Assembly (NCBI GenBank): GCA_016213825.1
Contig: JACQZP010000030.1
Location: forward strand, 1-64,000
Source: Acetobacterium woodii
GTDB taxonomy: Bacteria > Bacillota > Clostridia > Eubacteriales > Eubacteriaceae
Length of the DNA: 64,000 nt
Direction: 5' to 3'
In this document: piece after piece, positions 20,293 to 38,276 of the stretch
Layout of the letters: each line of letters starts with the position of its first letter
Numbering within the stretch: position 1 is the first letter of the stretch
Position numbers and translations under genes: made by a program
Notes under the pieces: model-generated
Told to the model about the DNA's origin: nothing
Database searches by the model: none
What the model saw: the letters and a program-made list of their open reading frames with translations, nothing else

Positions 20293-20308
20293 GAAAAATC
20301 GAGATTAA

Positions 20309-21101: not shown

Positions 21102-21107
21102 TAACGA

Positions 21108-21222: not shown

Positions 21223-21226
21223 TGAG

Positions 21227-21664
21227 ATGAATGCGAATGCCACAATAATGGCCAAATCTCATGAAATAGACCGTAAATGGTATGTGATTGATGCTGAAGG
21301 TAAGGTATTAGGACGTCTGGCGACAGAAGTTGCAAATATTTTACGAGGAAAAAACAAACCAATTTTTTCACCACATATGGATTGCGGAGATTTTGTAATT
21401 ATTATCAATGCTGATAAGATTGTATTAACCGGAAACAAGTTAGATCAGAAATTATATAAAACATATTCTGGATATTGCGGTGGATTAAAAGAAATGACCT
21501 ACCGAAAATTCTTAGCTGAAAAACCAGAACTTTTGGTTTTCAAAGCAGTGAAGGGTATGATCCCACATAACAAGTTAGGGGATAAAATTGCGACTAAACT
21601 AAAAGTTTATGCTGGCAATGAACATCCACACGCTGCACAATTGCCTGAAGTTTACGAATTTTAA
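21227..21664 (+). CDS. rplM: 50S ribosomal protein L13
   Basis: L13 (145 residues) is an early assembly protein of the large subunit. [20 protein letters not shown] and [12 protein letters not shown] are characteristic. GAGGAGGAC sits 7 bases upstream of ATG 21227; the ATG at 21248 has no such site. It forms a pair with rpsI. Confidence 0.97.
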
Positions 21665-21687
21665 TGCTGAGAAGGAGGAAATAGAGA

Positions 21688-22080
21688 ATGGCTAAAGTAC
21701 AATATTTTGGAACAGGACGAAGAAAAACCTCGGTTGCCCGAGTTCGATTATTACCAGGGAGTGGAAAATTCATTATTAACGGACGTGATATTGATGAATT
21801 TTTCGGAATGGAAACATTAAAGGTTATTGCAAGACAGCCTTTAACTTTAACTGAAACACGTGAAACATTTGACGTCATTGTTAATGTTCATGGTGGCGGT
21901 TTTACCGGACAGGCTGGAGCAATCCGACATGGGATTTCCCGTGCGCTGCTTGAAGCAGATATCAACCTGAGACCAGCACTGAAACGTGCCGGTTACTTAA
22001 CTCGAGATTCTCGTATGGTTGAAAGAAAAAAATACGGTCTCAAAAAAGCCCGTCGTGCACCACAGTTTTCAAAACGTTAA
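21688..22080 (+). CDS. rpsI: 30S ribosomal protein S9
   Basis: S9 (130 residues) reaches the P-site tRNA with its C-terminal tail, here ending RRAPQFSKR as in the family. The start [16 protein letters not shown] is diagnostic. GAAGGAGG precedes the ATG. Confidence 0.98.
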
Positions 22081-22095
22081 TATCAGACTTTTTAC

Positions 22096-22129
22096 AAGGT
22101 CCTGCGACATTCAATGTTGCAGGACTTTT
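22096..22129 (+). terminator. Terminator after rpsI
   Basis: GTCCTGCGACAT (22099-22110) pairs with ATGTTGCAGGAC (22114-22125) around TCA, followed by TTTTC. A strong stem with a short T run. Confidence 0.85.
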
Positions 22130-22167
22130 CAGTGTTACGCCATACTAAATTAAGAAAGCAGGAATTT

Positions 22168-23982
22168 ATGAATAACAAACAACCCATTATTAACATTGCA
22201 GTCATCGCCCATGTCGATGCCGGAAAATCTACCCTGGTAGATGCCCTTTTAGGACAAAGCAATGTTTTTAGAGAAAATCAGGAGGTCGTGGACTGCGTAA
22301 TGGACAGCAATGACCTTGAACGTGAACGTGGAATCACCATCTACTCGAAAAACTGCTCCATTATGTACAAAGACATTAAAATCAATATTGTCGATACCCC
22401 AGGCCATGCCGACTTTTCTTCAGAGGTTGAACGAATTCTGAAGACTGTTGATACCGTGGTTTTATTGGTTGACTCCAGTGAAGGCCCGATGCCCCAAACC
22501 CGTTTTGTTCTTAACAAGTCTTTGGAAAAAGGTTTAAACCCAATCCTTTTCATTAATAAAATCGATAAAAAAGATCAGCGTGCCGAAGAGGTGGTTGATA
22601 TGGTATTTGATTTATTTGTAGAACTGAAAGCCAATGACAAGCAATTGGATTTCCCGGTTCTTTACGGGATTGCCAAAGAAGGCATTGCCATTCGTGATAT
22701 GGCAGACGAAGGCGTGGATTTAGCGCCGCTTTTCGAAACCATTGTCGAACATGTTGGCCTTCAGGATGATCTGAGCCTTGAACCTCTGCAGATGCAGGTT
22801 TCTTCACTGGCTTATGACGATTATATTGGCCGTTTGGGGATTGGTAAGGTCTATTCTGGAACCATCCATGCTGGCGAACAAATCGAAATCTGCAAGACTG
22901 ATGGCACCTTTAAAAAGGAAAAAATTAATCAGGTTTTTGTTTACCGTGGTTTAGCCCGGGTGGAAGTTAAGGAAGCGAAAGCTGGGGACATCGTTGTTAT
23001 TTCGGGAATACCAGATATCTCCATTGGCGAAACCATTGGCGAAATCAATCAGGTTCAGCCGATGGAACTGATTGAGATTGAACAACCAACCCTGTCGATG
23101 AACTTCCTGGTTAACAAATCACCTTTTGCTGGTGATTCCGGTAAATTTGTAACCACCCGACACATTCGGGCGCGGTTGGAAAAAGAGCTGGAAGTCAATG
23201 TTGGTCTTTTAGTTGAAGAATTAGAAGATACCACTGATGGCTTCAAGGTTTCTGGACGTGGCGAGCTGCATTTATCGATTCTGCTGGAAAACATGCGTCG
23301 AGAAGGCTATGAAGTCGCTGTTTCCAAACCAGAAGTAATCATGCACCGTGATGAAAATAATAAGCTGCTGGAACCGGTTGAACTGGTAATTGTATCGGTT
23401 CCAGAAAAATATTCTGGTGCCGTTATTTCCAAGCTTAATATCCGAAAAGGTCGTATGGAAAGCATGTACACCGACGAAGCCTGGACAAAGATGGAATTTT
23501 TTGTACCGACTCGTGGCTTATTGGGTTATCAAAGTGAATTTATCAACGATACCCATGGTGAAGGTACCATGGTCCGTCGCTTTTCTGCTTTTGAAGAGCA
23601 TAAGGGTGATATTCCCCAACGTCTCAATGGGGTTCTTATTTCCCAATTCGCTGGTGAAACCATGGCCTATTCATTGTTTAATTTAAGCGATCGTGGCGAA
23701 ATGCTGGTTAGAGCCGGAACGAAAGTCTATGAAGGCATGATTATTGGAATCAATAATCGTAGTGATGACATGACGGTTAATCCGACTAAGAATAAAAAAA
23801 TGACCAACGTTCGTTCTTCCGGAACGGATGAAGCGTTAAAATTGATTGAGCCTCGTATTATGACGTTAGAGCAGGCGATCGAATTTATTCAAGACGATGA
23901 ATTGGTAGAATTAACACCAACCGATATTCGAATCCGTAAAAAAGTATTAAATGAGTTGGAACGAAAACGTAGTTCCCGCTAG
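22168..23982 (+). CDS. typA: Ribosome-associated GTPase BipA/TypA
   Basis: BipA (604 residues) is a translational GTPase related to EF-G, needed for 50S assembly and growth under stress. G1 is AHVDAGKST, switch II includes DTPGHADF, and G4 is NKID. The C-terminal domain unique to BipA is present. I start at ATG 22168 with AAAGCAGGA upstream; the frame opens earlier, but that part lies inside the rpsI terminator. Confidence 0.97.
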   Translation: MNNKQPIINIAVIAHVDAGKSTLVDALLGQSNVFRENQEVVDCVMDSNDLERERGITIYSKNCSIMYKDIKINIVDTPGHADFSSEVERILKTVDTVVLLVDSSEGPMPQTRFVLNKSLEKGLNPILFINKIDKKDQRAEEVVDMVFDLFVELKANDKQLDFPVLYGIAKEGIAIRDMADEGVDLAPLFETIVEHVGLQDDLSLEPLQMQVSSLAYDDYIGRLGIGKVYSGTIHAGEQIEICKTDGTFKKEKINQVFVYRGLARVEVKEAKAGDIVVISGIPDISIGETIGEINQVQPMELIEIEQPTLSMNFLVNKSPFAGDSGKFVTTRHIRARLEKELEVNVGLLVEELEDTTDGFKVSGRGELHLSILLENMRREGYEVAVSKPEVIMHRDENNKLLEPVELVIVSVPEKYSGAVISKLNIRKGRMESMYTDEAWTKMEFFVPTRGLLGYQSEFINDTHGEGTMVRRFSAFEEHKGDIPQRLNGVLISQFAGETMAYSLFNLSDRGEMLVRAGTKVYEGMIIGINNRSDDMTVNPTKNKKMTNVRSSGTDEALKLIEPRIMTLEQAIEFIQDDELVELTPTDIRIRKKVLNELERKRSSR

Positions 23983-24017
23983 AAAAAAAGAAACGCTTAA
24001 TCGGCGTTTCTTTTTTT
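23983..24017 (+). terminator. Terminator after typA
   Basis: AAAAAAAGAAACGC pairs with GCGTTTCTTTTTTT around a seven-base loop. It begins directly after the stop codon. Confidence 0.93.
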
Positions 24018-24074
24018 GCGAGAATTACATGAAGGTCATAATCGCTGCGAATGCAGTAGTGGATAAAATAACAA

Positions 24075-24104
24075 TTGACCATCAAACTTTTAGTGTGATA
24101 TTAT
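24075..24104 (+). promoter_or_regulatory. Promoter of the small membrane protein gene
   Basis: TTGACC and TATTAT separated by 18 bases, just upstream of the gene that begins at 24136. Confidence 0.6.
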
Positions 24105-24135
24105 GTAAATATCTTAGATAGGAGGTAAACAACAA

Positions 24136-24468
24136 ATGATTAATGTTGACAAGCAAGAAGCCGAAGAAGGCAAAGTTCTAGCTATTTTTGCCTACATCAT
24201 TTTCTTTATTCCACTATTGGCCGGCCGCGATAATCGCTTTACCCAGTTCCATGCAAATCAGGGTTTGGTGCTATTTTTGACCTCGCTGGTAGTGGTGGTT
24301 GTTTCCAACATATTAAGCTGGATTATCTGGCCAATTGGTATGTTGGTCAGCTCGGTGGGTTCATTGGGGATTTTGGCCCTCGCAATTATCGGGATCATCA
24401 ATGTTGTTCAACTTGAAGCAAAACCTCTTCCAATTATCGGCGGTATTACACTGATTCAGTCCTACTAG
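24136..24468 (+). CDS. Small membrane protein, DUF4870/Tic20-like
   Basis: A 110-residue protein with three hydrophobic segments (about 16-30, 47-66 and 72-92). The motif RFTQFHANQGLVLF between the first two is the hallmark of the DUF4870/Tic20-like group of small membrane proteins. Its function is unknown. AGGAGG precedes the ATG. It stands alone between two terminators. Confidence 0.8.
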   Translation: MINVDKQEAEEGKVLAIFAYIIFFIPLLAGRDNRFTQFHANQGLVLFLTSLVVVVVSNILSWIIWPIGMLVSSVGSLGILALAIIGIINVVQLEAKPLPIIGGITLIQSY

Positions 24469-24496
24469 GTCGTTACCAAAAATCGAAGCATTTAAA

Positions 24497-24527
24497 AAAA
24501 AAGCATTGCCACCGTGGCGATGCTTTT
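24497..24527 (+). terminator. Terminator after the DUF4870-like gene
   Basis: AAGCATTGCCAC pairs with GTGGCGATGCTT (one G-T pair), with A and T runs on the two sides. Confidence 0.88.
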
Positions 24528-24610
24528 AATTTGGCTAAAAATATAAATTTAACTAAGTAATATTAATATCTGCATGCTATAATAAAACATTAAGAAAAGG
24601 TGGTGAACAT

Positions 24611-25807
24611 GTGGAAAATAATGAAAACGACAAAAACAAAAAATATGACTTGAGAGACAAGACCTTTAGAAATAACCTATTTTTGATAACCTTTGGGATC
24701 TGTCTGTTAGTGGCGCTCCTGAATATAAATTATCTGGTTGGCTATTTTGCCATGTTTGTGAATATTATAACGCCGGTACTGATCGGTTTGGGCGTTGCGT
24801 TTATCCTGAACATTCCGATGACATTTATGGAGCATCATTTATTAGGTTTTATGAATCGCTTTAAAAACAAAAAAAACCGTAATCTGAACAAGGGCAAGCG
24901 GACTATTTCAATCACCTTGACCTTTCTGCTGGTGCTTGGGATCATCGCCGGGATTATAACCTTTGTTATTCCTCAGGTGAGTGCCAGTGTTGACACGCTG
25001 ATGGTCAAATTGCCAGGATATGTGGACTCATTTAATTCACTGGTTGATCAGACCCTGACATTTTTCAACTTGCCAGCGACCTTATGGACAGATATAACGA
25101 TTGAATGGAATACGGTGATGGAACAATTTGGGAGTCTTTTACTTAGTTCAGTTCCAGAAATATTTAACGCTACCAAGAATATCACGGTCGGCTTCTTTAA
25201 TGCGATCATGGGGATTGTAATTTCTATTTATTTACTGGCTGATAAAGAGAATCTACTGGCGTTGAAGGATAAGCTGATCTATGCATACATCAGAAAAGAT
25301 CGGGCCGATTTTATTCAGGATGTTAGCGTCACTGCGAATCAGGTGTTTCATGGGTTTATCGCCGGGCAAATAACCGAAGCCTTTATTCTGGGAACTCTTT
25401 GTACCGTCGGTCTGGCGATCCTGCAGATTCCATACGCCCTGCTGATTGGTGTTTTAGTAGGGGTAACCAGCCTGATTCCGGTATTTGGAGCATTTCTGGG
25501 AGCCATTCCCAGCGGGTTTATTTTATTAGTTGTCAATCCAATCTATTGTCTGATCTTCGTGATCTACATTATTGCATTACAGCAGGTGGAAACTAATATC
25601 ATTTATCCGCGAGTTGTTGGTGGCTCCATTGGCTTATCCGGGCTTTGGGTGCTGATCGGGATGCTGATCGGCGGTAGTTTATTTGGCTTCCTGGGGATCA
25701 TTCTGGGAATTCCGACCTTTGCCGTGTTCTATGCCGTATTTAGAAAAATCACCAACGAGCGGATTGAAAAAATGACGGCAACGCAGGAAGAAACAGTCAT
25801 AAATTAG
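24611..25807 (+). CDS. AI-2E family transporter
   Basis: This 398-residue membrane protein has seven to eight hydrophobic segments in the AI-2E (PerM/YdiK) pattern: two segments at the N-terminus, a soluble stretch of about 100 residues (QVSASVDTLMVKLPGYVDSFN), then the conserved HGFIAGQITEAFILG near 240 and the GALIPVFGAFLGAIPS-like loop near 290. Family members export small molecules or act as Na+/H+ antiporters; the substrate here is unknown. The start is GTG 24611, with AAAAGGTGG upstream. Confidence 0.9.
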   Translation: MENNENDKNKKYDLRDKTFRNNLFLITFGICLLVALLNINYLVGYFAMFVNIITPVLIGLGVAFILNIPMTFMEHHLLGFMNRFKNKKNRNLNKGKRTISITLTFLLVLGIIAGIITFVIPQVSASVDTLMVKLPGYVDSFNSLVDQTLTFFNLPATLWTDITIEWNTVMEQFGSLLLSSVPEIFNATKNITVGFFNAIMGIVISIYLLADKENLLALKDKLIYAYIRKDRADFIQDVSVTANQVFHGFIAGQITEAFILGTLCTVGLAILQIPYALLIGVLVGVTSLIPVFGAFLGAIPSGFILLVVNPIYCLIFVIYIIALQQVETNIIYPRVVGGSIGLSGLWVLIGMLIGGSLFGFLGIILGIPTFAVFYAVFRKITNERIEKMTATQEETVIN

Positions 25808-25818
25808 CTTCGAACTAT

Positions 25819-25884
25819 TAAAAAGAGCGTCCCTTGCCTCAGCTGACCTGTTGGTCAAAGCGAGGCAAGGGACGCTTTTTAAAA
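25819..25884. terminator. Bidirectional terminator
   Basis: A long stem (AAAAAGAGCGTCCCTTGCCTC with its complement at 25861-25881) lies between two convergent genes, with T runs on both sides, so it can serve both strands. Confidence 0.93.
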
Positions 25885-26733
25885 TTATTTTTTTGGTATT
25901 TTGTTTTTTTCCAGTTGTTGTTTGGCTTTGGAAGCAATCAGTGTCAAACTGACAGTAAAATTTTGAAAGCCGGTATAAAAGGGGTGGCGCAGATCCTGTT
26001 TACGAATATCGCCGCTTTGGTCAAGCAATCGGTTGGGGGGATGATTATTGTGGGGAAGTCGGGATTCACCGCCAACCACAACCCGTTTGCCGGCAATGCT
26101 GTTTAAAAGAAGATTGACGACATCCCAGGCGGATTCATAGGCAATGATACGGTTCTGGTTTTTGCTGATTTCGGCCGCATATTTGCGAATAAATTCAGCT
26201 GAAAAGCCCTGGCTGTTGAAGGTCACACAACGATCAATTTTGTCACCATCGACAATGGTAATGTACTGGCTGTTGTTGCCACCTTTTGAGTGACCAGTCA
26301 TGGTATAATGGTCAAAATTAAAAACCGTATCCACATCATGAAAGAATTCCAGTGCCTTTAGTTGCTGGGGTGTGTCGGTTACGAAACCACCCTTAATATT
26401 ATCAACCCAACCGATTCCGGTGGTTCCTCGAAAAGCAATGATACCGGAGTCGTCAGTGTGATCAGAGAAACAATAGGCTACCAGACCATTATCCGGTTGA
26501 TTGGTATAGGCCAGGACTTTCAGGGACGTGAGACGGGGATCTTGCTGCATTAAAAGCAGCGATTTTTCCCATTCAGACGCAGACATGGCGCAATCTCCCT
26601 GAAGCTCATTGACATTTTGCAGCAAAGCCCCCACCATTTCGCCTACCGTATAGTCTGGCAGGATTGCTGGCTCGACAGGCGGATTCAAAGCGGCCAACTG
26701 GCTGATTAAATTAAGTTCGCTATGATACAACAT
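25885..26733 (-). CDS. Mbeg1-like (DUF2974) alpha/beta hydrolase
   Basis: A 282-residue cytoplasmic protein with a lipase-like nucleophile elbow GHSKGG near residue 136 and an upstream FRGTTG motif that would form the oxyanion region. This matches the DUF2974/Mbeg1-like group of predicted lipases. The substrate is unknown; no signal peptide is seen. AAAGGAGG precedes the ATG on the minus strand. It shares the terminator at 25819 with the AI-2E gene. Confidence 0.85.
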   Translation of the reverse strand: MLYHSELNLISQLAALNPPVEPAILPDYTVGEMVGALLQNVNELQGDCAMSASEWEKSLLLMQQDPRLTSLKVLAYTNQPDNGLVAYCFSDHTDDSGIIAFRGTTGIGWVDNIKGGFVTDTPQQLKALEFFHDVDTVFNFDHYTMTGHSKGGNNSQYITIVDGDKIDRCVTFNSQGFSAEFIRKYAAEISKNQNRIIAYESAWDVVNLLLNSIAGKRVVVGGESRLPHNNHPPNRLLDQSGDIRKQDLRHPFYTGFQNFTVSLTLIASKAKQQLEKNKIPKK

Positions 26734-26762
26734 GGTTCTTACCTCCTTTGGTAAGAAATAAA

Positions 26763-27018
26763 TAGATAATTACGAAAGTGCCGTGAGCTTTGAGCCCAGT
26801 TTCGCACGAAACACCAGAAGAAATCGCGATGCGAATTTCTTCGAGGTCGCGGGCAGTCGCCAACTACAAGCAAGCTTGTGATTGGCTCATTGCCTTCGCG
26901 AATTTCTACACTGTGCGGCGGACAGTTCGATGAACTGTTCGCCTACACGTTACGAAATTGTTTGTGGAAACTGCACCCAAAGCAACCATTGTTCGATGTT
27001 TTTTAATTTTGTAAATGT
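26763..27018 (+). repeat. Mosaic palindromic repeat, copy B (rearranged)
   Basis: The left end (ACGAAAGTGCCGTGAGCTTTG) and the right part (TTGTGGAAACTG...GTTCG) match copy A. In between, the M2-M3 block is inverted and lies before M1: M3 at 26813-26842, M2 at 26843-26900, then M1 in the same orientation as copy A at 26900-26971. The terminal repeats have decayed. It fills the gap between two minus-strand genes and codes for nothing. Confidence 0.8.
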
Positions 27019-27047
27019 ATATAAGAAATAGATATAAAAGACTAAAA

Positions 27048-27887
27048 TTATTTAGCTGCAGTCTGATTCTTTTTTGACTTGTTTTTTTCCATAAAAGCTT
27101 TATAGATTTCCAACGAGCTTTGATGGTGCTGATGCGACATTTTGGGGAAAGCATTCATAATTCGGCGGTGAGAATAACGGTTGATTTTTTTGGTTTCGCC
27201 AATTCGATTGGTTAAAGATTCGATCAACTGATGAGCCGAATCTTTGGCATCGGCAAGTTTGCCATCTTTCAAGTCTCGTACTTTAGCAGTGACTTCATGA
27301 GCAGTATTGATACCTTTTTCTTTTAAATTGTCTTTTAGTTCGGTCGTTGCTTCGTAAACACTGCTGAGTTTTTTATTGAAAGAAACCGTTTCACGGGTCG
27401 ATTCCACAAGATCACTGAGAAAGAAAACCGCAGCAATCGTGGCGATGATCTGGATCCAGAAAGACGAGAAACTATCGACTAAATTATTGACAAAGGGATG
27501 GACGACATACATCAGAATCACACATAAGATGCCGAAGAGCACTGAATTCAATAAACAGACCCGGCCATTAATATTAAATTTATGATCCGAATAGTCCCAC
27601 CATTTGGCATGAAAGAGTTTTTCCATTCCCCAACTGGTGATGTATTCAAGGGTGCTGGTGAGAAGTACACCAATAAAAAAGACCAGAATCGGATCGTGGA
27701 TATAGGGCATTAAAAAGGTGATGATGATCAGGGCCCCGACCCCATAAATCGGACAATACGGTCCATTTAAAAAACCACGGTTAATAAACTTTTTTTCCGG
27801 GATGGAACAGTACACGACTTCACACATCCATCCGATGATGGCATAAAGAAAAAAATAAATAAATAGCAGACTCAGAGTATAATACAT
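27048..27887 (-). CDS. Putative ABC-transporter-type membrane protein (CmpB family)
   Basis: A 279-residue protein whose first two thirds match the family annotated as putative ABC transporter permease CmpB: FFLYAIIGWMCEVVYCSI, then GPYCPIYGVGAL, and EYITSWGMEKLFHAKWWDYSD with about five to six membrane segments. The rest is a basic helical cytoplasmic tail. No ATPase partner is adjacent, so a real transport role is doubtful. I start at ATG 27887, which has GAAAGGAATC upstream, rather than 27914. Confidence 0.8.
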   Translation of the reverse strand: MYYTLSLLFIYFFLYAIIGWMCEVVYCSIPEKKFINRGFLNGPYCPIYGVGALIIITFLMPYIHDPILVFFIGVLLTSTLEYITSWGMEKLFHAKWWDYSDHKFNINGRVCLLNSVLFGILCVILMYVVHPFVNNLVDSFSSFWIQIIATIAAVFFLSDLVESTRETVSFNKKLSSVYEATTELKDNLKEKGINTAHEVTAKVRDLKDGKLADAKDSAHQLIESLTNRIGETKKINRYSHRRIMNAFPKMSHQHHQSSLEIYKAFMEKNKSKKNQTAAK

Positions 27888-28118
27888 AATGATTCCTTTC
27901 AAAGTAATTATCAATTAATAACATTTAGAATCATTTTAACATATCAAATTGCTGTCTCCTAGATAAATCTTTAATCAAACTAATTTAAGAACGCAAATAT
28001 TTACAGGACAACGATGGATATGTTTTTGTTTTTTGAAATCGAATGGTTTATAATGAATGATATACCCCAAAACATACTAAATAAAACGAACGACAATCAA
28101 CAAAATTAGGGAGCGTAA

Positions 28119-28694
28119 ATGAAAGCCAACACGATCGAAACAACAAGCAGTGAACAACTTATTGATATTACCAAAAGCGTCCGGGAATATGTGGATCAGA
28201 CCCGCTTAAAGGATGGCTTTGTGCACATTCAAATTCCAGAAAGAACAGCCGCCGTAATGATTTCGATTAATGATGACTGGCGTCTGGAGAGAGAGTTCTT
28301 TGACAAGCTGAACCATCTGTTGCCCAAATATGACGGGATGAAATTCACCGGTTGGACAACCCCCTGCGTGAAAGCATCAATTTTTGGTCCTGCATTACAG
28401 GTAATGGTTCATGATGGAACGCTGATTCTGGATAAGAACCAGAGTATTTATTTTGTCGAATTTCAGGGGTCGGGAGAGCGACAGTATTTTATGAGCGTTT
28501 CGGGAACAACTCTGGCTGAGCATGAGGAAGCGACCATCCCAAAAGAACTGGCGCTGATTTATGAAAAGCGCAAAGAATATGAAGATGAACAGGAAAAAAT
28601 CAAAGAAGAAATGCGAAATGAATGGCGAATGCGAGAAGAACGTCGTTTGATGCTGGAAGAAGAGAATAAGACAAAAGAAACAACCGAAGAATAA
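28119..28694 (+). CDS. Divergent YjbQ-fold (UPF0047) protein with charged tail
   Basis: Residues 1-145 follow the YjbQ/UPF0047 pattern: GFVHIQIPERTAAVMISIND, then CVKASIFGPALQVMVHDGTL and IYFVEFQGSGERQYFMSV. In ordinary YjbQ proteins the first motif is P-H-T-(T/S)-A with a following N-x-D and the second is H-x-K-A-S; here those histidines are Glu and Cys, so the usual metal or active site is altered. Residues 146-191 are a highly charged Glu/Lys/Arg helix absent from typical members. YjbQ proteins have been linked to thiamine phosphate synthesis; this one probably does something else. It precedes the McrB-like gene by 46 bases. Confidence 0.75.
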   Translation: MKANTIETTSSEQLIDITKSVREYVDQTRLKDGFVHIQIPERTAAVMISINDDWRLEREFFDKLNHLLPKYDGMKFTGWTTPCVKASIFGPALQVMVHDGTLILDKNQSIYFVEFQGSGERQYFMSVSGTTLAEHEEATIPKELALIYEKRKEYEDEQEKIKEEMRNEWRMREERRLMLEEENKTKETTEE

Positions 28695-28740
28695 AGCACC
28701 ATTAAATAGAGTAACACTGAAAAAGAGAAAGGCTGTAAGA

Positions 28741-31284
28741 ATGAGCTGGGAATTATTAGAATCGGATCGAATAATAAAAACAATGGAATTATCGGACTTC
28801 ATCAATACAGAGATGATGATCCCAAAAGAACTGATACACTTTTTTGGAAGTTCTGGGGAACGGCTGGCCATCATCTATCAGAATCGGGAGTATCCATCCT
28901 ATCTGGAAACCGAAGGCGGTAATGCTAAGCTGAAGTGGAGCAAGGTGTTGATTCGGAAATTAGGAGAAGCATTTCCGGACTATGAGGCCTGGTTTAATGG
29001 GAACAGTGATGAATCAAAAACGCCCAAACTTGAAGTGACAAAAGCCAATGAAGCGTTTGTTCTCCGCTTAATTAGTGGAAACGAAGTGGCGAGTAATATT
29101 GAAGCAGCTAATAGTGATGGGATAAAACCACTCGAGACGGTTAAAAATACAGAAACAAGCCAATCGGGATTAAGTGAACTGCTGAAAAAATGGATTGCCG
29201 GCTATCCCAATTATTATCCGCGAGATTTTCGGTTTTCGTTTAAAGATGTTATTAATGAAGAGATCCCCAAAGTAATTGAGAACTTTGAGGGGATTAAATC
29301 CGGGAATTATAAGGTATTGGGATTTGCGGGAGACACCCAATGGGCGGAAATTCCCTGGGTTAAAGTGACCGCTAAGCAGCTTCAAAATATCAATGATGGG
29401 GGACTCTATCTGGCCTACATTCTGGCGATGGACAGCCGTAAGCTTTATCTGGCGATTATTTATGGTGCTGATAATGTCGGGGTCAGAAGCCTCTCGGAAA
29501 AAGCGACCGAATACCGGAAACTGATTCAAACCGGGAACTATCAAACCAATCATAAAGAGGTCTTATTGGCTAATGCCACCCTGGTTTCAGGAATTGTCTG
29601 TTTCCGAGAATATACCGAAGCTGAGATGCCCGATGACGAGGTGCTGCAAAACGAGTTTGAGGATTTCAGAAAAATGTATGACTTATGCCTCACTGCCAAC
29701 TCAGTGGAAACAGAAGTGTCAGTAAATCAAGAACTAGAAGAATTAACAGTCAGTAACGAAACCAACTCAGCAGATCAGCAAAAGGAACCCATTCAGGAAT
29801 CAGTAGCAGTGGAACCGTTGCCAGAGGAACAAACCGTAGAAATTGTATTGGAAGATTTATCTGAAACAACGCGTGACAGTGATGAAAAGCGATCGGTCGA
29901 CGCGGAAATAGCCACACCAATGACTGTTGGTACAGCAGAGGAAGATAAACGAATTCAAACCACAAAGGATGAATCTGAAAAAGCTGGAGAAGTCCAAGAT
30001 GATTCAGTCGATCAACAGCCTACCGATAGCATTCAAACGAGTGCTCCTTCAATAATTAAAGAGCAGGAGCAACCGTTAAAAGCAGCTGATTCGGATTTGA
30101 TCGCGGAGCGCATTTCGGTGGAGGATAGCTTTAACCAGAGAATAGCAGAAGAGCTAAACCAATTGTCGCAAACCGTTATGCATTACCCGGTCAAGAATGA
30201 CTACCTGCCCACCGATCTCCAATTGATTCAGGCCAAAATGGGCAACAAGGGATATTACTACCCGGCGGAGCTGATAAAAAGCTATTATCTGTCGATTAAA
30301 TCGAAACCCTTTGTGATGATTAAAGGTCGGGTTGGCAGCGGCAAAACCAGCTTTCCCCGTCTTTTTGCAGAGGCCATTGGAGCCAATTCGGAAAACGGAC
30401 GATTTAAACGAGTCCTGGTGGGAAAACATTGGGAAGATGATACCCATCTTTGGGGTCAGCTGGACAGTCGAGGTCACTTTATCCCGGGACCGATGATGTT
30501 GATGTTAAAAACGGCTAAAGAATATCCTGAAAAACCGCATTTTTTGCTGCTGGATGAAATGGATCAGTCTCCGGCAACGGATTATCTCCGATTGTTGCTG
30601 GAAGGGATCAATGGCAACAAGGAGCCCCTGTTAATGCGAGAAGATTTTGGGGCCGATATCACCGCATTTAGAGAGTACGGAAATCTGAGTTTTCCTGATA
30701 ATCTTTATATCATTGGAACCATCAATGAGGCCCCAGAGAGTTCACCGATTCACGCCCGGGTCATTGACTGCGGCAACGTTATTAAAATGCCGATAGTTGA
30801 GATTGGTATTTTTCCTGATTATGGCAGTCCAGTGGGTGATCGTGAATGGGAAAACAGCGCGTTTAAAATGCACAGTCATGCCAAAGGTTTACCGGAAATT
30901 CTCGAAAAACTGATGCATTTACTTAACGAAGTTCAAAAGTTATTGATTGAGTTTGACCGGTCAATGGGATACCGGGGTAAAAATGAAATTCTGGCCTTTG
31001 GGATCAATAGCGGGGTTGAAGGTTTGTTCACCGAAAAAGAAGTCATTGATCTGGCGATTTTACAACGAATTATACCAGCATTGGAATGTGATGAGAAAGT
31101 AGCGCCTGAAGTGTATCAGGCCTTGGCGTGTTTTTTATTGGAAGATGGTTTAAAGGATAAGTTGTTAAAGCGTCAGCCACTAAGTGGGTTTGGCGGTCTT
31201 TTTGAAAAGTTGTTAAAGGCCGAAGCGATTCCCTGTCCGCGGAGCGGAACAGCAATTATGAAAAAACTGAAAAATTTGACATGA
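28741..31284 (+). CDS. McrB-like AAA+ protein with MrcB N-terminal domain
   Basis: An 847-residue multi-domain protein. Residues 15-85 form a small domain (IPKELIHFFGSSGERL, LKWSKVLIRKLG) of the type that precedes DNA-acting modules. Residues 145-320 resemble the MrcB/DUF3578 domain (AEIPWVKVTAKQL, GGLYLAYILAMDSRKLYLAI). Residues 320-470 are an acidic, Gln/Glu-rich linker. The AAA+ module has Walker A GRVGSGKT (about 529), Walker B FLLLDEMDQ (about 601) and a sensor-like IIGTINEA. McrB family proteins are GTP-driven motors of type IV restriction that need McrC nuclease; no McrC is present here. A regulatory or defence role is inference. Confidence 0.8.
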   Translation: MSWELLESDRIIKTMELSDFINTEMMIPKELIHFFGSSGERLAIIYQNREYPSYLETEGGNAKLKWSKVLIRKLGEAFPDYEAWFNGNSDESKTPKLEVTKANEAFVLRLISGNEVASNIEAANSDGIKPLETVKNTETSQSGLSELLKKWIAGYPNYYPRDFRFSFKDVINEEIPKVIENFEGIKSGNYKVLGFAGDTQWAEIPWVKVTAKQLQNINDGGLYLAYILAMDSRKLYLAIIYGADNVGVRSLSEKATEYRKLIQTGNYQTNHKEVLLANATLVSGIVCFREYTEAEMPDDEVLQNEFEDFRKMYDLCLTANSVETEVSVNQELEELTVSNETNSADQQKEPIQESVAVEPLPEEQTVEIVLEDLSETTRDSDEKRSVDAEIATPMTVGTAEEDKRIQTTKDESEKAGEVQDDSVDQQPTDSIQTSAPSIIKEQEQPLKAADSDLIAERISVEDSFNQRIAEELNQLSQTVMHYPVKNDYLPTDLQLIQAKMGNKGYYYPAELIKSYYLSIKSKPFVMIKGRVGSGKTSFPRLFAEAIGANSENGRFKRVLVGKHWEDDTHLWGQLDSRGHFIPGPMMLMLKTAKEYPEKPHFLLLDEMDQSPATDYLRLLLEGINGNKEPLLMREDFGADITAFREYGNLSFPDNLYIIGTINEAPESSPIHARVIDCGNVIKMPIVEIGIFPDYGSPVGDREWENSAFKMHSHAKGLPEILEKLMHLLNEVQKLLIEFDRSMGYRGKNEILAFGINSGVEGLFTEKEVIDLAILQRIIPALECDEKVAPEVYQALACFLLEDGLKDKLLKRQPLSGFGGLFEKLLKAEAIPCPRSGTAIMKKLKNLT

Positions 31285-31323
31285 ACTTGAAAATCAAAAT
31301 CTGATCATGTGAATGAATTAATA

Positions 31324-31409
31324 AAAAGCCAATTAGTTAAATCTTGTTTATACTTCGGAGCAGCATCGCTGGATCGAAGAATAAACAAGATTGCTAATTG
31401 GCTTTTATT
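31324..31409. terminator. Long bidirectional hairpin terminator
   Basis: An 83-base near-perfect hairpin: AAAAGCCAATTAG, AATCTTGTTTAT and CTTCG on the left pair with CGAAG, ATAAACAAGATT and CTAATTGGCTTTT on the right. It separates the McrB-like gene from the convergent CBS gene and ends in T on both strands. Confidence 0.85.
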
Positions 31410-31427
31410 ATTAGGGAAAGGTTAGCA

Positions 31428-31859
31428 TCAGACGGCTTCCTGTTCAGCCACTTTGTTGGACAAAAAGCTAATCAACTCCTTAATCAGTTCCTGCCGACGG
31501 AGGATCCCGATAAAGATCCCCTGGTCATCAACAAGTGGAATAAAGTTTTGTTTGACTGCCATTTCAACCAAGTGTTCATAACTTTCATTAATTTTGGCAA
31601 CTTCCAGATTAATTTTGAACTCGATATCCTTGATCTCAAAAGAATTTAAATCAATTTCCGGGTGGGTTAAACTCAGCGATAAAACTCTGAGGAGATCGCC
31701 CTCACAGATGGTTCCCACGTACTGCCCCTTTTTATTGATGACCGGCAGGGCGGTATAATTAGTAATGACAAACATATTATAGGCCTGATTGAATGAATCG
31801 GTGTTGTTTAAAAAGACGGTTTCGCTTTTGGGTAACAAATAAAACAGATGGTTTTTCAT
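31428..31859 (-). CDS. CBS-domain pair protein, possible c-di-AMP receptor
   Basis: A 143-residue protein made of two CBS domains (ITNYTALPVINKKGQYVGTI near 32-51, and KQNFIPLVDDQGIFIGIL near 104-121). Stand-alone CBS pairs of this size include CbpB/DarB, which binds c-di-AMP in other Firmicutes. It is divergent from cdaA, the gene for the enzyme that makes c-di-AMP, across a shared 195-base region; that supports, but does not prove, a c-di-AMP role. AAGGAGCTC lies before the ATG. Confidence 0.8.
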   Translation of the reverse strand: MKNHLFYLLPKSETVFLNNTDSFNQAYNMFVITNYTALPVINKKGQYVGTICEGDLLRVLSLSLTHPEIDLNSFEIKDIEFKINLEVAKINESYEHLVEMAVKQNFIPLVDDQGIFIGILRRQELIKELISFLSNKVAEQEAV

Positions 31860-31995
31860 ATAAAAGAGCTCCTTTTTCTTAACAAAAGATTGGGAAGGTT
31901 TTTAATTAAATTCTATTCTAGCATTTATTTCACAAATATCCCTTAAAAATTTTCTTAACTGCGACTGTAATAATCTGAAAAAATCGAATTTCCGT

Positions 31996-32024
31996 TTCAC
32001 GTAATGGCGTTGTTAGTGTATAAT
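31996..32024 (+). promoter_or_regulatory. Possible cdaA promoter
   Basis: TATAAT at 32019-32024 is perfect, with a weak TTCACG 17 bases upstream. It is 31 bases before the chosen cdaA start. Confidence 0.45.
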
Positions 32025-32054
32025 TAACAGTAACTAATGAATGAGGGAACTAAA

Positions 32055-32900
32055 ATGGAAGAGTTTTTGTTATATATTCAATCACGCATAACAGTAGCCA
32101 GTATTATTGAGGTGGTAATCATCACGTTTATTATTTATCGACTGTTGTTGTGGATTCGAGGAACCCAGGCAGAACAAGTTTTTAAGGGCTTGATCCTGCT
32201 GCTTTTTTTGTCGCCAATCAGCGAATGGCTGGGTTTTACAACATTGAATTTAATTATTAATAGTGTCTTTACCTGGGCGTTTATCTTTATTGTAGTTGTC
32301 TTTCAGCCAGAATTCCGTTCGGCATTGGAGCAACTGGGCAATAATCGGTTATTTAAGGAAATAATGAAAAAACCATCGATGGATTTTTTGGAAGAAGATG
32401 TTGAAAAGATAATGAAAGCCGTTGGAAAGCTGGCGGCTGAAAAAACCGGAGCCTTAATTGTGCTGGAAAAAGACACCGGTCTTAATAATATTGTCAAGAC
32501 CGGAACGGAGCTGGATTCAGATATCAGCAGCGAATTATTGGAAAACATTTTTACCCCCAATCGCCCGCTTCACGACGGTGCCGTGATTATTAAACTCTGG
32601 TCCCGACAGATCAGAGCCGCCGGGTGTTTATTACCGCTCTCGGATAACCGGGATCTGGGCAGTGAATTGGGCACCCGGCATCGAGCCGGTTTGGGCATGA
32701 CTGAAAAATCAGATGCGCTGGTTATTATTGTCTCCGAAGAAACCGGTCAAATATCCTATGCTTCCAAAGGAACCTTGTTTCAGGATATTATCGTGGAGTT
32801 TCTAAAACAGATTATTTTAGAAAGTTATACGGTCAGCGAGGAAAGCAGTATCGACAGCGGCTGGTTAAACAAACTCTGGGGGCGATTAGATGGCAAATAG
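32055..32900 (+). CDS. cdaA: Diadenylate cyclase CdaA
   Basis: CdaA (281 residues) joins two ATP to make the second messenger c-di-AMP, which controls potassium and osmolyte balance and cell wall homeostasis. Three N-terminal membrane segments (about 14-85) are followed by the DAC domain with LHDGAVII near 172 and GTRHRAGLG near 203, the catalytic motifs. I start at ATG 32055 with GAGGGA upstream; the ATG at 32037 has no site. It overlaps cdaR by 11 bases. Confidence 0.96.
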   Translation: MEEFLLYIQSRITVASIIEVVIITFIIYRLLLWIRGTQAEQVFKGLILLLFLSPISEWLGFTTLNLIINSVFTWAFIFIVVVFQPEFRSALEQLGNNRLFKEIMKKPSMDFLEEDVEKIMKAVGKLAAEKTGALIVLEKDTGLNNIVKTGTELDSDISSELLENIFTPNRPLHDGAVIIKLWSRQIRAAGCLLPLSDNRDLGSELGTRHRAGLGMTEKSDALVIIVSEETGQISYASKGTLFQDIIVEFLKQIILESYTVSEESSIDSGWLNKLWGRLDGK

Positions 32901-34101
32901 AAAAAAAATTCCCGTACATGAACGATTAATCCGGATGCTGGCGGCGATTGGCATCGCGATAACGCTGTGGTTTATGGTCAACGGCAACGCTGATATGCTG
33001 ATCACCCAGGATTTTAATAGCATCCCGATTACATTAACCAACACGGAATCGCTCACCGCAAAAAATTTGGTTTTGGCAGATAACAAAAACTATTATCTCA
33101 ATTTACAGGTAAAAGGAACTGATAAAAACCTGAAGAATATTAATATGAAAGAAATAACCGCCGAAGTGGATCTCAGTGATATTGATGCGAAAGGAACCTA
33201 TGATTTAGATGTTCAGGTGAAGGGGCTTTCCAACTCAGTGATTATCAGCAGTATGAATCCTTCCAGTCTCCAGATTGTGGTGGACAACATCATCAAAGAA
33301 GATCTGGAGGTCGAAATTGTACCCGAGGGTAAACCCGCCAATGACCTGTCGGTAATTTCCGCGGAAGCATTGGAAAAAGTTGAAGTGGAAGGTCCGGAAG
33401 AGTCCATCGCGCGAATTAGTAAGATAACGGCGACGGCCAACGTAAACGGTATGGAAACTGACACAACCCAGCATCTGGAGGTCTCAGCCTATGACGAATC
33501 CGGCAATCTGATATCAGACTTAGACATGTTACCAAACGTTGTTACCACCGAGATTATCCTGGGCAAAACCAAGTCGTTGGGAATTATCCCATCCACCACG
33601 GGGAGTCCCGCCAATGGCTACATGGTAACTGGGATGTTAGTAGAACCATCCAAAGTAACCATTGGGGCAAAGGAAGAATTGCTCAAAACCATTGAATCCA
33701 TTCCCATGGATCCGATCGATGTCACCGGTCAATCTAAAACATTTACCAAAGACATCAATCTCACCCCGCCGGCAGGATGTTATTTCCTTGATGGTAGTGG
33801 CAAAGTCAAGGCGACGGTTTCTATTGAGAGTCCGGTTGAAAAGAGTTTTACAGTTGATAAGATTACCGCAAAGAATTTAGGCACCGGTCTGATGACTTCA
33901 AAAATAAAAGATAGCCGAGTTGTTATCAAGCTCAAAGGAGCAAGCAGTGTTTTGAACAGCTTGAATGCTGATCAGGTTGAGGCTTCTGTTGACTGCGCCA
34001 ATTTAGGACCGGGAGAATATGAATTGCCGATTCAGACCAATTTATCACAGTCTTTGGTGCAATCAATCACACCGGCAAAAACAACAGTAATAATTGAATA
34101 A
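32890..34101 (+). CDS. cdaR: CdaR/YbbR-domain regulator of CdaA
   Basis: A 403-residue protein with one N-terminal membrane anchor (about 12-30, AAIGIAITLWFMVNG) and an extracytoplasmic part built of four YbbR repeats, recognisable by recurring VEVEGP, VTIGAKEELLK and VVIKLKGASSVL segments. CdaR modulates CdaA from outside the membrane. In many Firmicutes glmM follows; here a serine-biosynthesis operon follows instead. Confidence 0.93.
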   Translation: MANRKKIPVHERLIRMLAAIGIAITLWFMVNGNADMLITQDFNSIPITLTNTESLTAKNLVLADNKNYYLNLQVKGTDKNLKNINMKEITAEVDLSDIDAKGTYDLDVQVKGLSNSVIISSMNPSSLQIVVDNIIKEDLEVEIVPEGKPANDLSVISAEALEKVEVEGPEESIARISKITATANVNGMETDTTQHLEVSAYDESGNLISDLDMLPNVVTTEIILGKTKSLGIIPSTTGSPANGYMVTGMLVEPSKVTIGAKEELLKTIESIPMDPIDVTGQSKTFTKDINLTPPAGCYFLDGSGKVKATVSIESPVEKSFTVDKITAKNLGTGLMTSKIKDSRVVIKLKGASSVLNSLNADQVEASVDCANLGPGEYELPIQTNLSQSLVQSITPAKTTVIIE

Positions 34102-34148
34102 GAAATCATTTGCAATCAGAAAATTTACATAAAATTTGATACAAAATC

Positions 34149-34177
34149 TTGCATTTGACAATAATTTAACATATAAT
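34149..34177 (+). promoter_or_regulatory. Promoter of serC-serA
   Basis: TTGCAT (34149-34154) and TATAAT (34172-34177) with a 17-base spacer; a TTGACA at 34155 is at the wrong distance. The transcript would have a leader of about 60 bases. Confidence 0.65.
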
Positions 34178-34245
34178 AGCAGGAAGTAATTTTTTCAGAG
34201 AATTACAAATCACACCAAAACATTATTTTAAGGAGGAAATTAAAA

Positions 34246-35334
34246 GTGAAAAGAGTTTATAATTTTTCAGCAGGACCATCATGTTTACCAATGGAAGTCC
34301 TACAAAAAGCTGCGGATGAAATGGTATCCTATGGAGATTCCGGTATGTCCGTGATGGAGATGAGTCATCGATCATCCTATTTTATTGATATTCTTCAAGA
34401 AGCAAAAAGTCTTTACAAAGAATTAATGAATGTTCCTGATAATTATGAAATCCTGTTTTTACAGGGCGGAGCATCAACTCAGTTTGCAATGGTTCCGTTG
34501 AATCTTTATTCAAAAACCAATAAAGCTGATTTTATGATCACTGGCAGTTGGGCAAAAAAGGCTTATCAAGAGTCTGCTCGTTATGGAGAAGCAAAGGTTA
34601 TTGCATCATCCCAGGATAAAACCTTTTCCTACATCCCAAAGGTAGATCCCAAGGATTTTACACCTGATGCTGATTTCTTCCATATTTGCGTTAATAACAC
34701 CATTTACGGAACTCGCTTCAAACCTGAAAATATTCCCGATACTGGCAATGTACCATTAGTTGGCGACATGTCATCAAACATCTTATCAGAAGTGTATGAC
34801 GTCTCTAAATTCGGTTTAATTTATGCCGGCGCTCAGAAAAACATGGGACCAGCTGGTGTAACCGCAGTGATCATCCGAAATGATTTACTGGGACACGCCA
34901 AAGATTTTACCCCAACGATGCTGGATTACAAAATTCATGCCGATAACGACTCAAGCTATAACACCCCACCATGTTATGCCATTTATATCTGCAAACTGGT
35001 TTATGAATGGGTTAAAGCAAACGGCGGCGTTGCTGGAATGGAAGCTGTTAATAAAGAAAAAGCTCAAAAACTATATGACTTTATTGATAATAGTACACTT
35101 TATAAAGGGACTGTTGTTCCTGAAGACCGTTCATTGATGAATGTACCTTTTATAACCGGATCAGACGAATTAGATGCGCTATTCGTTAAGGAAAGCAAAA
35201 AAGCCGGGATGGAAAATCTTAAAGGTCATCGTAGCGTTGGTGGCATGCGTGCCAGTATTTACAATGCCATGCCAATGGCCGGTATCGATACCTTGATTGA
35301 TTTCATGAAGAAATTTGAAAAAGAAAACGCCTAA
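34246..35334 (+). CDS. serC: Phosphoserine aminotransferase
   Basis: SerC (362 residues) turns 3-phosphohydroxypyruvate into phosphoserine with glutamate as amino donor. The start VYNFSAGPSCLPMEVL and the PLP-lysine region YAGAQKNMGPAGV (Lys near 197) are diagnostic. The start is GTG 34246 with TAAGGAGGA upstream. It is the first gene of the serC-serA unit. Confidence 0.97.
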   Translation: MKRVYNFSAGPSCLPMEVLQKAADEMVSYGDSGMSVMEMSHRSSYFIDILQEAKSLYKELMNVPDNYEILFLQGGASTQFAMVPLNLYSKTNKADFMITGSWAKKAYQESARYGEAKVIASSQDKTFSYIPKVDPKDFTPDADFFHICVNNTIYGTRFKPENIPDTGNVPLVGDMSSNILSEVYDVSKFGLIYAGAQKNMGPAGVTAVIIRNDLLGHAKDFTPTMLDYKIHADNDSSYNTPPCYAIYICKLVYEWVKANGGVAGMEAVNKEKAQKLYDFIDNSTLYKGTVVPEDRSLMNVPFITGSDELDALFVKESKKAGMENLKGHRSVGGMRASIYNAMPMAGIDTLIDFMKKFEKENA

Positions 35335-35363
35335 GCATTTTCGCTAAGAAAGGAAACAGACCA

Positions 35364-36533
35364 TTGAATTATAAAGTACAAACCCTCAATAATATTTCAA
35401 AAAAAGGCCTTAAATTATTAGGTGAAAATTATACCGTTCTTGACCAACCAGAAAATCCCGATGCCATTTTACTAAGAAGCTTTAAAATGCATGATATGGA
35501 TATTCCGGAATCAGTTAAATTTGTCGGACGAGCCGGAGCCGGAGTCAATAATATTCCGCTGGAAAAATGTTCAGAAAAAGGAATCGTTGTCTGTAACTCA
35601 CCAGGAGCTAACGCCAATGCCGTTAAAGAATTGGTGATCGCTGGGATGCTGATCTCTTCGCGTAAGGTAGTTGATGGGATTGCGTGGTCAAGCACCTTAG
35701 TAGACAAGGGTGATGAAGTACCAGCACTTGTCGAAAAAGGTAAGGGCGCGTTTGGCGGACCAGAGCTTTACGGCAAGAAAATGGGTGTTATTGGTTTAGG
35801 TGCCATTGGTGTCCTGGTTGCCAATATGGCCGTTGATTTCGGGATGAAGGTTTACGGATTTGACCCATTCATTTCCATCGACAATGCCTGGGGTTTAAGC
35901 CGAAAAGTAAAACGTGCCGTCAGTAAAGAAGAAATTTTTAAAAACTGCGATTACATTTCACTTCACATTCCTTATATGGATGAAACCAAGGATTATGTCA
36001 ATGCCGACCTATTAAAAGAAACCAAAGAAGGGTTAAGACTTCTTAACTTTGCCCGAGGTGGACTGGTTAACTATGATGCCCTGGAAAATGCCATCGAAGA
36101 AGGAACCATCGCAACCTATATTACCGATTTCCCAAATGAACGACTTCTAAAAATGAAAAATGTCATCAATATTCCACATTTAGGCGCTTCAACGCCAGAG
36201 AGTGAAGAAAATTGTGCGGAAATGGCCATTCATTCTTTAAAAGAATATCTGGAAAACGGGAACATCATTAATTCTGTGAATTATCCTGATTGCAATATGG
36301 GGGTTTGTGAAGCAGAAAACCGAATCACCGTCAATCATGCCAATGTGCCCAATATGTTAGGACAAATCACCAAAATTCTGGCTGATAATGACATCAATAT
36401 TTCGGTTATGACCAATAAGAACCGCGGTTCTTGGGCATATACCATGATCGATGTTGACAGCAATGTTGGCGAAGATGTTAAAACAGCTTTAAAAAGCATC
36501 AAAGGCGTCACCCGCGTACGGATTATTAAATAG
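35364..36533 (+). CDS. serA: 3-Phosphoglycerate dehydrogenase with ACT domain
   Basis: SerA (389 residues) oxidises 3-phosphoglycerate to phosphohydroxypyruvate, the first step to serine. The substrate-binding domain has VGRAGAGVNNIPL, the Rossmann motif is GLGAIGVLVANMA near 148, and HLGASTPESEENCA carries the catalytic His. A C-terminal ACT domain (about 315-389) suggests feedback by serine. The start is TTG 35364 with GAAAGGAAAC upstream. Confidence 0.95.
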   Translation: MNYKVQTLNNISKKGLKLLGENYTVLDQPENPDAILLRSFKMHDMDIPESVKFVGRAGAGVNNIPLEKCSEKGIVVCNSPGANANAVKELVIAGMLISSRKVVDGIAWSSTLVDKGDEVPALVEKGKGAFGGPELYGKKMGVIGLGAIGVLVANMAVDFGMKVYGFDPFISIDNAWGLSRKVKRAVSKEEIFKNCDYISLHIPYMDETKDYVNADLLKETKEGLRLLNFARGGLVNYDALENAIEEGTIATYITDFPNERLLKMKNVINIPHLGASTPESEENCAEMAIHSLKEYLENGNIINSVNYPDCNMGVCEAENRITVNHANVPNMLGQITKILADNDINISVMTNKNRGSWAYTMIDVDSNVGEDVKTALKSIKGVTRVRIIK

Positions 36534-36544
36534 TTTAAAACGAT

Positions 36545-36592
36545 AAAAAAAGAAGTGGCTTCGGATCAATGAAGACCACTTCTTTCTTTAAA
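36545..36592 (+). terminator. Terminator-like hairpin between serA and DUF1015
   Basis: AAAAGAAGTGG pairs with CCACTTCTTT, followed by CTTTAAA. It would separate serA from the next gene at least in part, although the gap is short. Confidence 0.75.
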
Positions 36593-36607
36593 AAACAGGA
36601 GGAAAAA

Positions 36608-37852
36608 ATGGCAACAATCAAACCCTTTAAAGCAGTTCGTCCGTTTCCAGAAAAGGCTCAGGATGTCGCAGCGCTGCCTTATGATGTGTATAATCGGGAA
36701 GAAGCAGCAATTGCCGCCCGAGGAAAACTGGATTCATTTTTACGGGTCGATCGTCCAGAAACAACATTGGACGAGCGCATCAAAATCAATGACCCCTTTG
36801 TTTATGAAACGGCCCGGAAAAATCTGGAAAAACTGTTTCATCGCAAGGCCTTAACTCAGGATACCAAAGACTGTTTATATATTTATGAATTGATCATGGA
36901 TGGCCGCAGCCAGGTCGGTCTGGTTGTTTGTACCGCCATCGATGAGTATCTGAACAACACCATTAAAAAACATGAGCTGACCCGGGCTGATAAAGAAGAA
37001 GACCGTATCAAGCATGTTGATGCCTGTAATGCTAACACCGGACCAATTTTTCTGACCTACCGCTCACAAGATACCATCAATGAAATGATCGACGCATGGC
37101 GAAAAGCCAACGAACCGGTTTATGATTTCGTTTCAGATGATGGGATTACCCACCGGGCCTGGGTTGTTGATGATGAAGCCATTATTAATGGGTTAGTTGA
37201 AAAATTCAGCAATGTCGAAAGTCTATATATCGCTGATGGCCATCACCGTTCGGCTTCTGCCGTTAAGGTCGGTCTGATGCGTCGGGAAGCAAACCCCGAT
37301 TATACCGGAGCTGAAGAATTCAACTATTTCCTCTCGGTTTTATTTCCAGACGAACAGCTCTACATTATGGATTACAACCGGGTCGTGAAAGATCTCAACG
37401 GACTGAGTGTTGATGAGTTTTTAGATGCTCTTGCTGAAAAATTTGATGTGACCCCTAAGGATGCAGAACCGGTCAAACCACCACAAAAGGGTAGCTTTGG
37501 TTTATATGTGGATGGTAAATGGTATTTATTAACTGTCAAAGAAGGGGTCTATGATCCAGCTGATCCGGTTAATTCATTGGATGTGGCCATTCTGCAGAAT
37601 AATGTGCTGGTTCCGATTCTGGGCATCGGCGATATTCGGACGGACAAGCGCATTGACTTTGTTGGCGGAATCCGCGGTTTGAAAGAGTTAGAACGACGAG
37701 TCAATGAAGATATGGTGCTGGCTTTCTCGATGTACCCAACATCCATCGAAGAGCTGATGAACATTGCTGATGCCGATCTGCTGATGCCGCCAAAATCCAC
37801 CTGGTTTGAGCCAAAATTAAGAAGTGGCTTATTTATTCATAATCTTTATTAA
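36608..37852 (+). CDS. DUF1015 family protein
   Basis: A 414-residue protein matching DUF1015 along its length: AVRPFPEKAQDVAALPYDV at the start, IADGHHRSASAVK near 212, and RTDKRIDFVGGIRG near 347. The D-G-H-H-R motif also occurs in the ParB-fold ADP-dependent serine kinase SerK. No serB is in this window, and DUF1015 follows serC-serA here, so a role in phosphoserine or serine handling is a reasonable idea but not shown. I chose ATG 36608 with CAGGAGGA upstream. Confidence 0.85.
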   Translation: MATIKPFKAVRPFPEKAQDVAALPYDVYNREEAAIAARGKLDSFLRVDRPETTLDERIKINDPFVYETARKNLEKLFHRKALTQDTKDCLYIYELIMDGRSQVGLVVCTAIDEYLNNTIKKHELTRADKEEDRIKHVDACNANTGPIFLTYRSQDTINEMIDAWRKANEPVYDFVSDDGITHRAWVVDDEAIINGLVEKFSNVESLYIADGHHRSASAVKVGLMRREANPDYTGAEEFNYFLSVLFPDEQLYIMDYNRVVKDLNGLSVDEFLDALAEKFDVTPKDAEPVKPPQKGSFGLYVDGKWYLLTVKEGVYDPADPVNSLDVAILQNNVLVPILGIGDIRTDKRIDFVGGIRGLKELERRVNEDMVLAFSMYPTSIEELMNIADADLLMPPKSTWFEPKLRSGLFIHNLY

Positions 37853-37906
37853 TAGGGAGTAAATGATTTTAAACTTTAGTAAGAGAATTATAAAATAATA
37901 AAGATC

Positions 37907-37987
37907 AGACAATTAGTTTATCCGCGGCGGCACGCTTGTTTTTGCAAGCGTGCCCAAAAGTGGAAAATTAATTGTCTTTTTTATTTT
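37907..37987 (+). terminator. Two-part hairpin terminator after DUF1015
   Basis: AGACAATTA pairs with TAATTGTCT at the base, and GGCACGCTTG pairs with CAAGCGTGCC at the tip; the 3' side ends in TTTTTTATTTTATTT. Confidence 0.85.
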
Positions 37988-38165
37988 ATTTGAGTTCGTT
38001 TTGAGTGCAAATTAGAAAAAAAGAGCAAAAATTTCTCTTAGTTAGTGATTGAAGCTGATCCCATTATATGATATCCTTTTCAACAACAGTGAACTGAAAG
38101 ATAAAGATGCGTCTGAGTCTGACGGCAAATTGAACAATTTATAAAGTATTAATTAAAAAGAAACA

Positions 38166-38270: not shown

Positions 38271-38276
38271 TGTTTT

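Follow-up and report, generated by a model that had tools for sequence, protein, structure and literature searches.

The question raised by this locus is what becomes of a McrB-type AAA+ motor that has no nuclease beside it. The locus lies in a stretch of 64,000 nucleotides from Acetobacterium woodii (assembly GCA_016213825.1, contig JACQZP010000030.1, positions 1 to 64,000 of the forward strand), hereafter the window. It encodes a protein of the UPF0047/YjbQ fold, here called Y, and directly downstream a solitary AAA+ protein, here called A. We conclude that A probably derives from the AAA+ subunit of a LlaJI/PDC-M26-like (McrB-type) restriction system and has been domesticated. Across the family Eubacteriaceae A is mostly universal, is syntenic within the genus Acetobacterium, carries an extra N-terminal domain (N-domain) and has no adjoining nuclease. 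A preliminary description, made from the DNA letters alone, had called both open reading frames (ORFs), and both are real. The genes and domains, with the linker marked as fast-evolving by its ratio of nonsynonymous to synonymous substitution rates (dN/dS), are:

28119..28694, + strand: Y, UPF0047/YjbQ-fold protein, 191 amino acids (aa); ORF and family profiles
28741..31284, + strand: A, solitary McrB/LlaJI-type AAA+ protein, 847 aa; ORF and profiles
28741..29130, + strand: A residues 1-130, N-domain; profile, no Pfam or PDB match
29242..29682, + strand: A residues 168-314, MrcB_N (PF12102; DUF3578/ADAM); Pfam E 1.4e-18
29731..30165, + strand: A residues ~331-475, charged linker, fast-evolving; dN/dS
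30166..31281, + strand: A residues 476-847, McrB-type AAA+ domain; profile/PDB match

The C-terminal half of A is of the AAA+ type found in McrBC/LlaJI-type restriction systems. Searched against the PDB, the A family profile matches McrB best (E 3.2e-9), and the window protein also matches the PDC-M26A profile (E 3e-14); its AAA_5 match falls below the Pfam cut-off. According to the CoCoNuTs paper (PMC11090510), DUF3578 is the methylcytosine-binding domain of E. coli McrB, and McrC is described as DUF2357 plus a nuclease. No nuclease or DUF2357 gene was found beside A at the window locus, and no McrC/DUF2357 PD-(D/E)XK nuclease is linked to it. The MrcB/DUF3578-like domain and the McrB-like motor without McrC, as initially described, are thus both borne out. 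A has the AAA+ core and a DUF3578-type reader in common with E. coli McrB, but differs in the lack of McrC, the altered NxxD and arginine region, and the extra N-domain. Some solitary A proteins (L060-L064) reach 1369-1568 aa through long low-complexity N-terminal extensions with repeated TVLASGHTADEV-like segments.

Relatives with a nuclease were found both within the genus and on plasmids. One genus member with the Y-A tandem (G017) encodes a second protein, L057 (contig C61; ORFs 5277-9967, - strand), which consists of MrcB_N and AAA+ domains (M26A E 5e-50); the gene after it encodes a DUF2357 + PDDEXK_7 protein. A gene with weak DpdF-like matches is located nearby. A total of 190 plasmid records gave a match, and the 15 listed were all examined. 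A DUF2357 or PDDEXK_7 gene adjoins the motor in 14 of these 15, one gene away in H5 and H6, with H5/H6 being near-identical records and H3/H4 also near copies. The fifteenth (L151) has a 607-aa protein at the same place, with no Pfam match at E 0.001. Several of the listed plasmid relatives also carry a cytosine methyltransferase, and one short phage record showed a weak AAA match. Together with L057, 15 of 16 distant relatives examined have a linked DUF2357/PD-(D/E)XK nuclease. In the preliminary description, nuclease neighbours were to count against a new system; the distant relatives have them, but the family orthologues do not. Four of the 40 family genomes have a DUF2357 match at E <= 0.001, in two of them above the cut-off and in none on a contig with an A orthologue.

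LlaJI-like/PDC-M26 systems, composed of an AAA+ subunit and a DUF2357-PD-(D/E)XK nuclease, share with A the AAA+ type and the PDC-M26A match, and MrcB_N is common to L057 and A. In contrast to them, A has no adjoining nuclease or methyltransferase, possesses the extra N-domain and changed motor residues, and is core rather than mobile. An extra module carried by 17 solitary proteins from other genera, and by none of the solitary genus proteins, matches L057 over its first 168 residues, so the genus form of A appears to have lost this module.

The motor residues separate the paired from the solitary proteins. Sixteen nuclease-paired and 33 solitary proteins were compared by alignment to L057, a 34th solitary protein being dropped as truncated. 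All 16 paired proteins retain the Walker A Lys, the sensor-1 Asn, an Asp two positions after it and a conserved Arg, and one of them has Glu in place of the Walker B Asp. The sensor-1 Asn, the following acidic residue and the Arg are retained together in none of the 33 solitary proteins, A of the window included. In the latter, Walker A (GRVGSGKT), Walker B (LLLDE) and the sensor-1 Asn are kept, NEAP stands in place of NxDE, and DC in place of the conserved DR. The corresponding region of E. coli McrB holds sensor 1 Asn333, Asp336 and Arg348/Arg349, as given in PMC6624300. Because the three-residue set is kept in 16/16 paired and 0/33 solitary proteins, the AAA+ core of A must be regarded as incomplete, and the complete core initially described did not hold. 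The loss takes different forms across the family. The 16 genus proteins keep Walker A and B, none of them keeps the Arg, and two are also missing the Asn. In g3 and g4 the Arg is kept and the Asn lost, and in g7 the Walker A Ser/Thr is lost as well. Five of the 33 solitary proteins (g2, g8, g9) have lost the Walker A Lys and the Walker B Asp, with the alignment uncertain in the most eroded rows.

The N-domain is present in all 33 tested solitary proteins whose 5' end is available and in none of the 16 nuclease-paired relatives, which favours a single origin of the solitary form. A Pfam scan of 13 N-domains gave no match, and a PDB profile search gave nothing credible (best E 0.21). The structure predicted for A 1-330 has a mean predicted local distance difference test score (pLDDT) of 34.5, too poor for a fold search; this prediction and that of Y were each made with five close sequences. 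When the N-domain profile was run over 391 genomes of the class, it was found in seven of the eight sampled family genomes and in one further protein, of HNH type (L138, 419 aa, 8156-9415, - strand). The latter resembles at its start a solved EVE-type HNH endonuclease (6yex, E 1.5e-28), carries the N-domain in mid-protein and ends in HNH; it is possibly a modification-dependent nuclease with an undescribed middle domain. Since the N-domain sits within such a protein, a nucleic-acid-recognition role is also plausible for the N-domain of A. The L138 gene adjoins a UvrD-type helicase gene.

By profile search, A was found in 35 of the 40 family genomes, several of which are incomplete, and the 27 other genomes of the order yielded one weak AAA match. 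Y with a C-terminal tail occurs in 34 of the 67 genomes of the order, all 34 inside the family and with matches running through the tail. Among the 391 class genomes, tail-spanning matches were found in 8/8 family genomes, and no other match listed extends through the tail. In the family table, 32 genomes have both genes, two only tailed Y, three only A and three neither. One of the genomes with only A (G024) is a single contig, from which an RlmH match is also absent. Within the genus, both genes lie on one contig in 16 of 19 genomes, and in all 16 testable loci Y is directly upstream of A, adjacent, on the same strand and 21-101 bp away. In the remaining three, the contig ends inside A (G008), tailed Y is followed by a 63-aa ORF (G007), or neither gene is present (G011). 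The flanking gene order is largely the same on both sides across the genus loci. Outside the genus, Y and A are adjacent in none of the 16 genomes holding both, being located on different contigs or far apart by coordinates; there, the genes following tailed Y are mostly RlmH-like and ProA-like (names by eye). The linked two-gene unit of the preliminary description thus stands for the genus and not beyond it. In other genera, A is followed, either immediately or with intervening genes, by a gene for a small protein with a hydrophobic start and an acidic tail (cluster c10, L052-L072). This protein was dropped as a candidate partner of A, as its profile also hits genomes that lack A (G019, G020) and gives weak matches or none in the genus.

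Y belongs to UPF0047 by Pfam (PF01894, E 1.5e-21) and by TIGR00149 of NCBIfam (69.8 bits, cut-off 67.75). By sequence it shares the fold of the UPF0047/YjbQ family, but the conserved histidines of that family (PHTTA and SHAH in 1xbf) are replaced. When a profile of 27 tailed Y proteins was aligned to solved UPF0047 structures, the canonical PHTTA became pERT-like and GNSHAH became wttsgv-like, and the window protein reads PERTA and GWTTPCV at these stretches. The replaced positions are presumably catalytic in canonical UPF0047. Y differs further from canonical members in a charged helical tail of about 60 residues. A charged tail beyond residue ~130 is present in all 27 tailed proteins, with E157, E164, M165, R166 and E168 near-invariant. 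Residues 142-189 are predicted helical, with a block pLDDT of 64-85 from residue 151; the rest of the predicted structure is poor (model mean pLDDT 46.8, below use for fold searches). The YjbQ fold, the replaced histidines and the new charged helix of the first description were therefore confirmed, and Y appears to be a YjbQ-fold protein without catalytic activity that ends in a helical tail.

The domestication of A may have proceeded as follows. A restriction motor would have lost its nuclease partner and gained core-gene status in the family, its motor eroding differently in each genus. A would no longer restrict DNA; it would instead probably be a DNA-binding, nucleotide-gated oligomeric switch or scaffold, with the N-domain and MrcB_N as reader. 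Its most likely role would be a chromosome- or division-linked housekeeping function, as for PcdA. Y would serve A as an adaptor, expressed together with it in Acetobacterium, the two being encoded apart in other genera.

PcdA of Staphylococcus is, according to PMC10602043, a McrB-family protein without McrC that has eroded motifs and became a division protein with weak NTPase activity. By this description, the two proteins have in common a McrB-family AAA+ domain with eroded catalytic motifs, the absence of McrC, and a lineage-restricted, vertically kept distribution. In PcdA, which carries two EVE domains and binds FtsZ and DivIVA, the C-terminal helical bundle and most of Walker A have been lost. 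A instead carries the N-domain and MrcB_N, keeps Walker A and B in the genus and retains the C-terminal AAA region; no EVE match was found in A or in the 13 N-domains. As the architecture differs, A is classed as possibly working like PcdA and not as PcdA, and the two would be independent co-options, judging from a comparison by description. A bolder proposal, which we make tentatively and consider doubtful, is that A represents a second, independent conversion of a restriction motor to a core cellular protein in Firmicutes. It would be a family-wide pseudo-motor that combines a methyl-DNA-reader-type domain with a new DNA-recognition-like domain to position some chromosomal or division process, and the inactive YjbQ-fold adaptor would be a partner of a new kind.

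Several observations weigh against the domestication of A as outlined. The Walker motifs are intact in the window, and the N-domain and MrcB_N would fit a restriction reader as well. The Arg of the DR motif is placed by HMMER some residues ahead of the RRRF of McrB, so that its equivalence to the McrB Arg is not established and to call it an arginine finger would be conjectural. The AAA tree (39 rows, after 11 near-duplicate or truncated rows were dropped) requires two changes without forcing more than one origin, with the long-branch row L148 meeting the solitary clades; it neither demonstrates nor excludes a single origin of the solitary form. The 63-aa ORF of G007 (L123, 9116-9307), directly 3' of an intact Y, resembles the A C-terminus and is a natural loss of A. 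One further family genome has tailed Y without A; A is therefore dispensable, and Y can do without it. The role of A is a proposal from its sequence, and Y as its putative partner, for which the conserved tandem is the evidence, is the weakest link.

For the tandem, a real possibility, which we nevertheless hold to fall short of even, is that it is incidental: two family-specific housekeeping genes, neighbours since the genus ancestor, with unrelated functions. The unlinked arrangement in all 16 other-genus genomes and the two genomes that kept Y without A speak for it, as does a co-occurrence of Y and A (Fisher p 0.018) that is uncorrected for descent. It is opposed by the strand and spacing kept in 16/16 genus loci despite divergence down to ~40% identity for A and 51% for Y.

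The preliminary description had raised defence as a possibility. An active two-gene defence, in which A senses modified foreign DNA and Y acts as effector or signal, is unlikely. The conserved tandem, the restriction origin of the A domains with the MrcB_N reader kept, and the presence of the N-domain in an HNH-type nuclease protein are consistent with it. Against defence, the locus is syntenic in the genus, A is found almost throughout the family instead of patchily, and no solitary protein tested retains the three motor residues together. Moreover, Y has no PADLOC match; in other genera its gene stands apart from that of A, mostly near rlmH and proA, and Y persists in genomes with a reduced or missing A.

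The eroded motifs, the 63-aa ORF and the absence of A from a few genomes would also suit a decaying relic heading for loss, which is quite improbable given the selection on A. Against the nearest relative, dN/dS is 0.19 for the N-domain, 0.21 for MrcB_N, 0.08 for the AAA domain, 1.1 for the linker and 0.04-0.06 for Y, values that rest on the one pair close enough to measure well, since many more distant comparisons have saturated or undefined dS. The folded domains of A are under purifying selection in this pair. With neighbouring housekeeping genes at 0.006-0.044, A is faster-evolving than its neighbours yet constrained, and 30 full-length A proteins retain long open frames. A restriction motor using a nuclease encoded in trans, to which the intact Walker motifs and the A-like + DUF2357 pair of G017 would point, is very improbable, as in G017 the motor that pairs with a nuclease has a gene distinct from A, and PF09823, a profile that can miss divergent partners, gives no match in the genome of the window and exceeds the cut-off in 2 of the 40 family genomes.

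If A is a domesticated restriction subunit, the proteins of this family form a natural series: it starts with a motor still paired with a nuclease (L057), continues with solitary proteins in which one residue is changed, and ends with proteins that lack the Walker motifs. This series would make the repurposing of restriction motors testable, a question opened by PcdA. It would also point to a candidate new function in the acetogens employed for gas fermentation, and caution against counting such genes as restriction or defence genes. No print mention of the Y-A pair or its family was found in a literature search mostly without subscription journals; PMC9930230 names just a strain genotype.

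In the window, Y and A are separated by 46 bp on the + strand, and their GC contents (42.7% and 43.5%) are close to that of the window (41.6%). A separate canonical-length UPF0047 gene is present elsewhere in the same genome, and a second MrcB_N protein was not found there. The long terminator noted earlier downstream of A corresponds to a strong hairpin:

31318..31415, + strand: long hairpin 3' of A, probable terminator; -45.4 kcal/mol, z -10.6

Consensus promoter and terminator scans gave no excess over shuffled sequence and missed this hairpin, and an Rfam search of window positions 20000-40000 gave no match. The neighbouring gene described as repeat-flanked has merely weak and short repeats. 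Past the pair, positions 31428-34101 hold a CBS-domain gene on the opposite strand, followed by CdaA-like (diadenylate cyclase) and YbbR-like genes (names by eye), and this order is kept across the genus.
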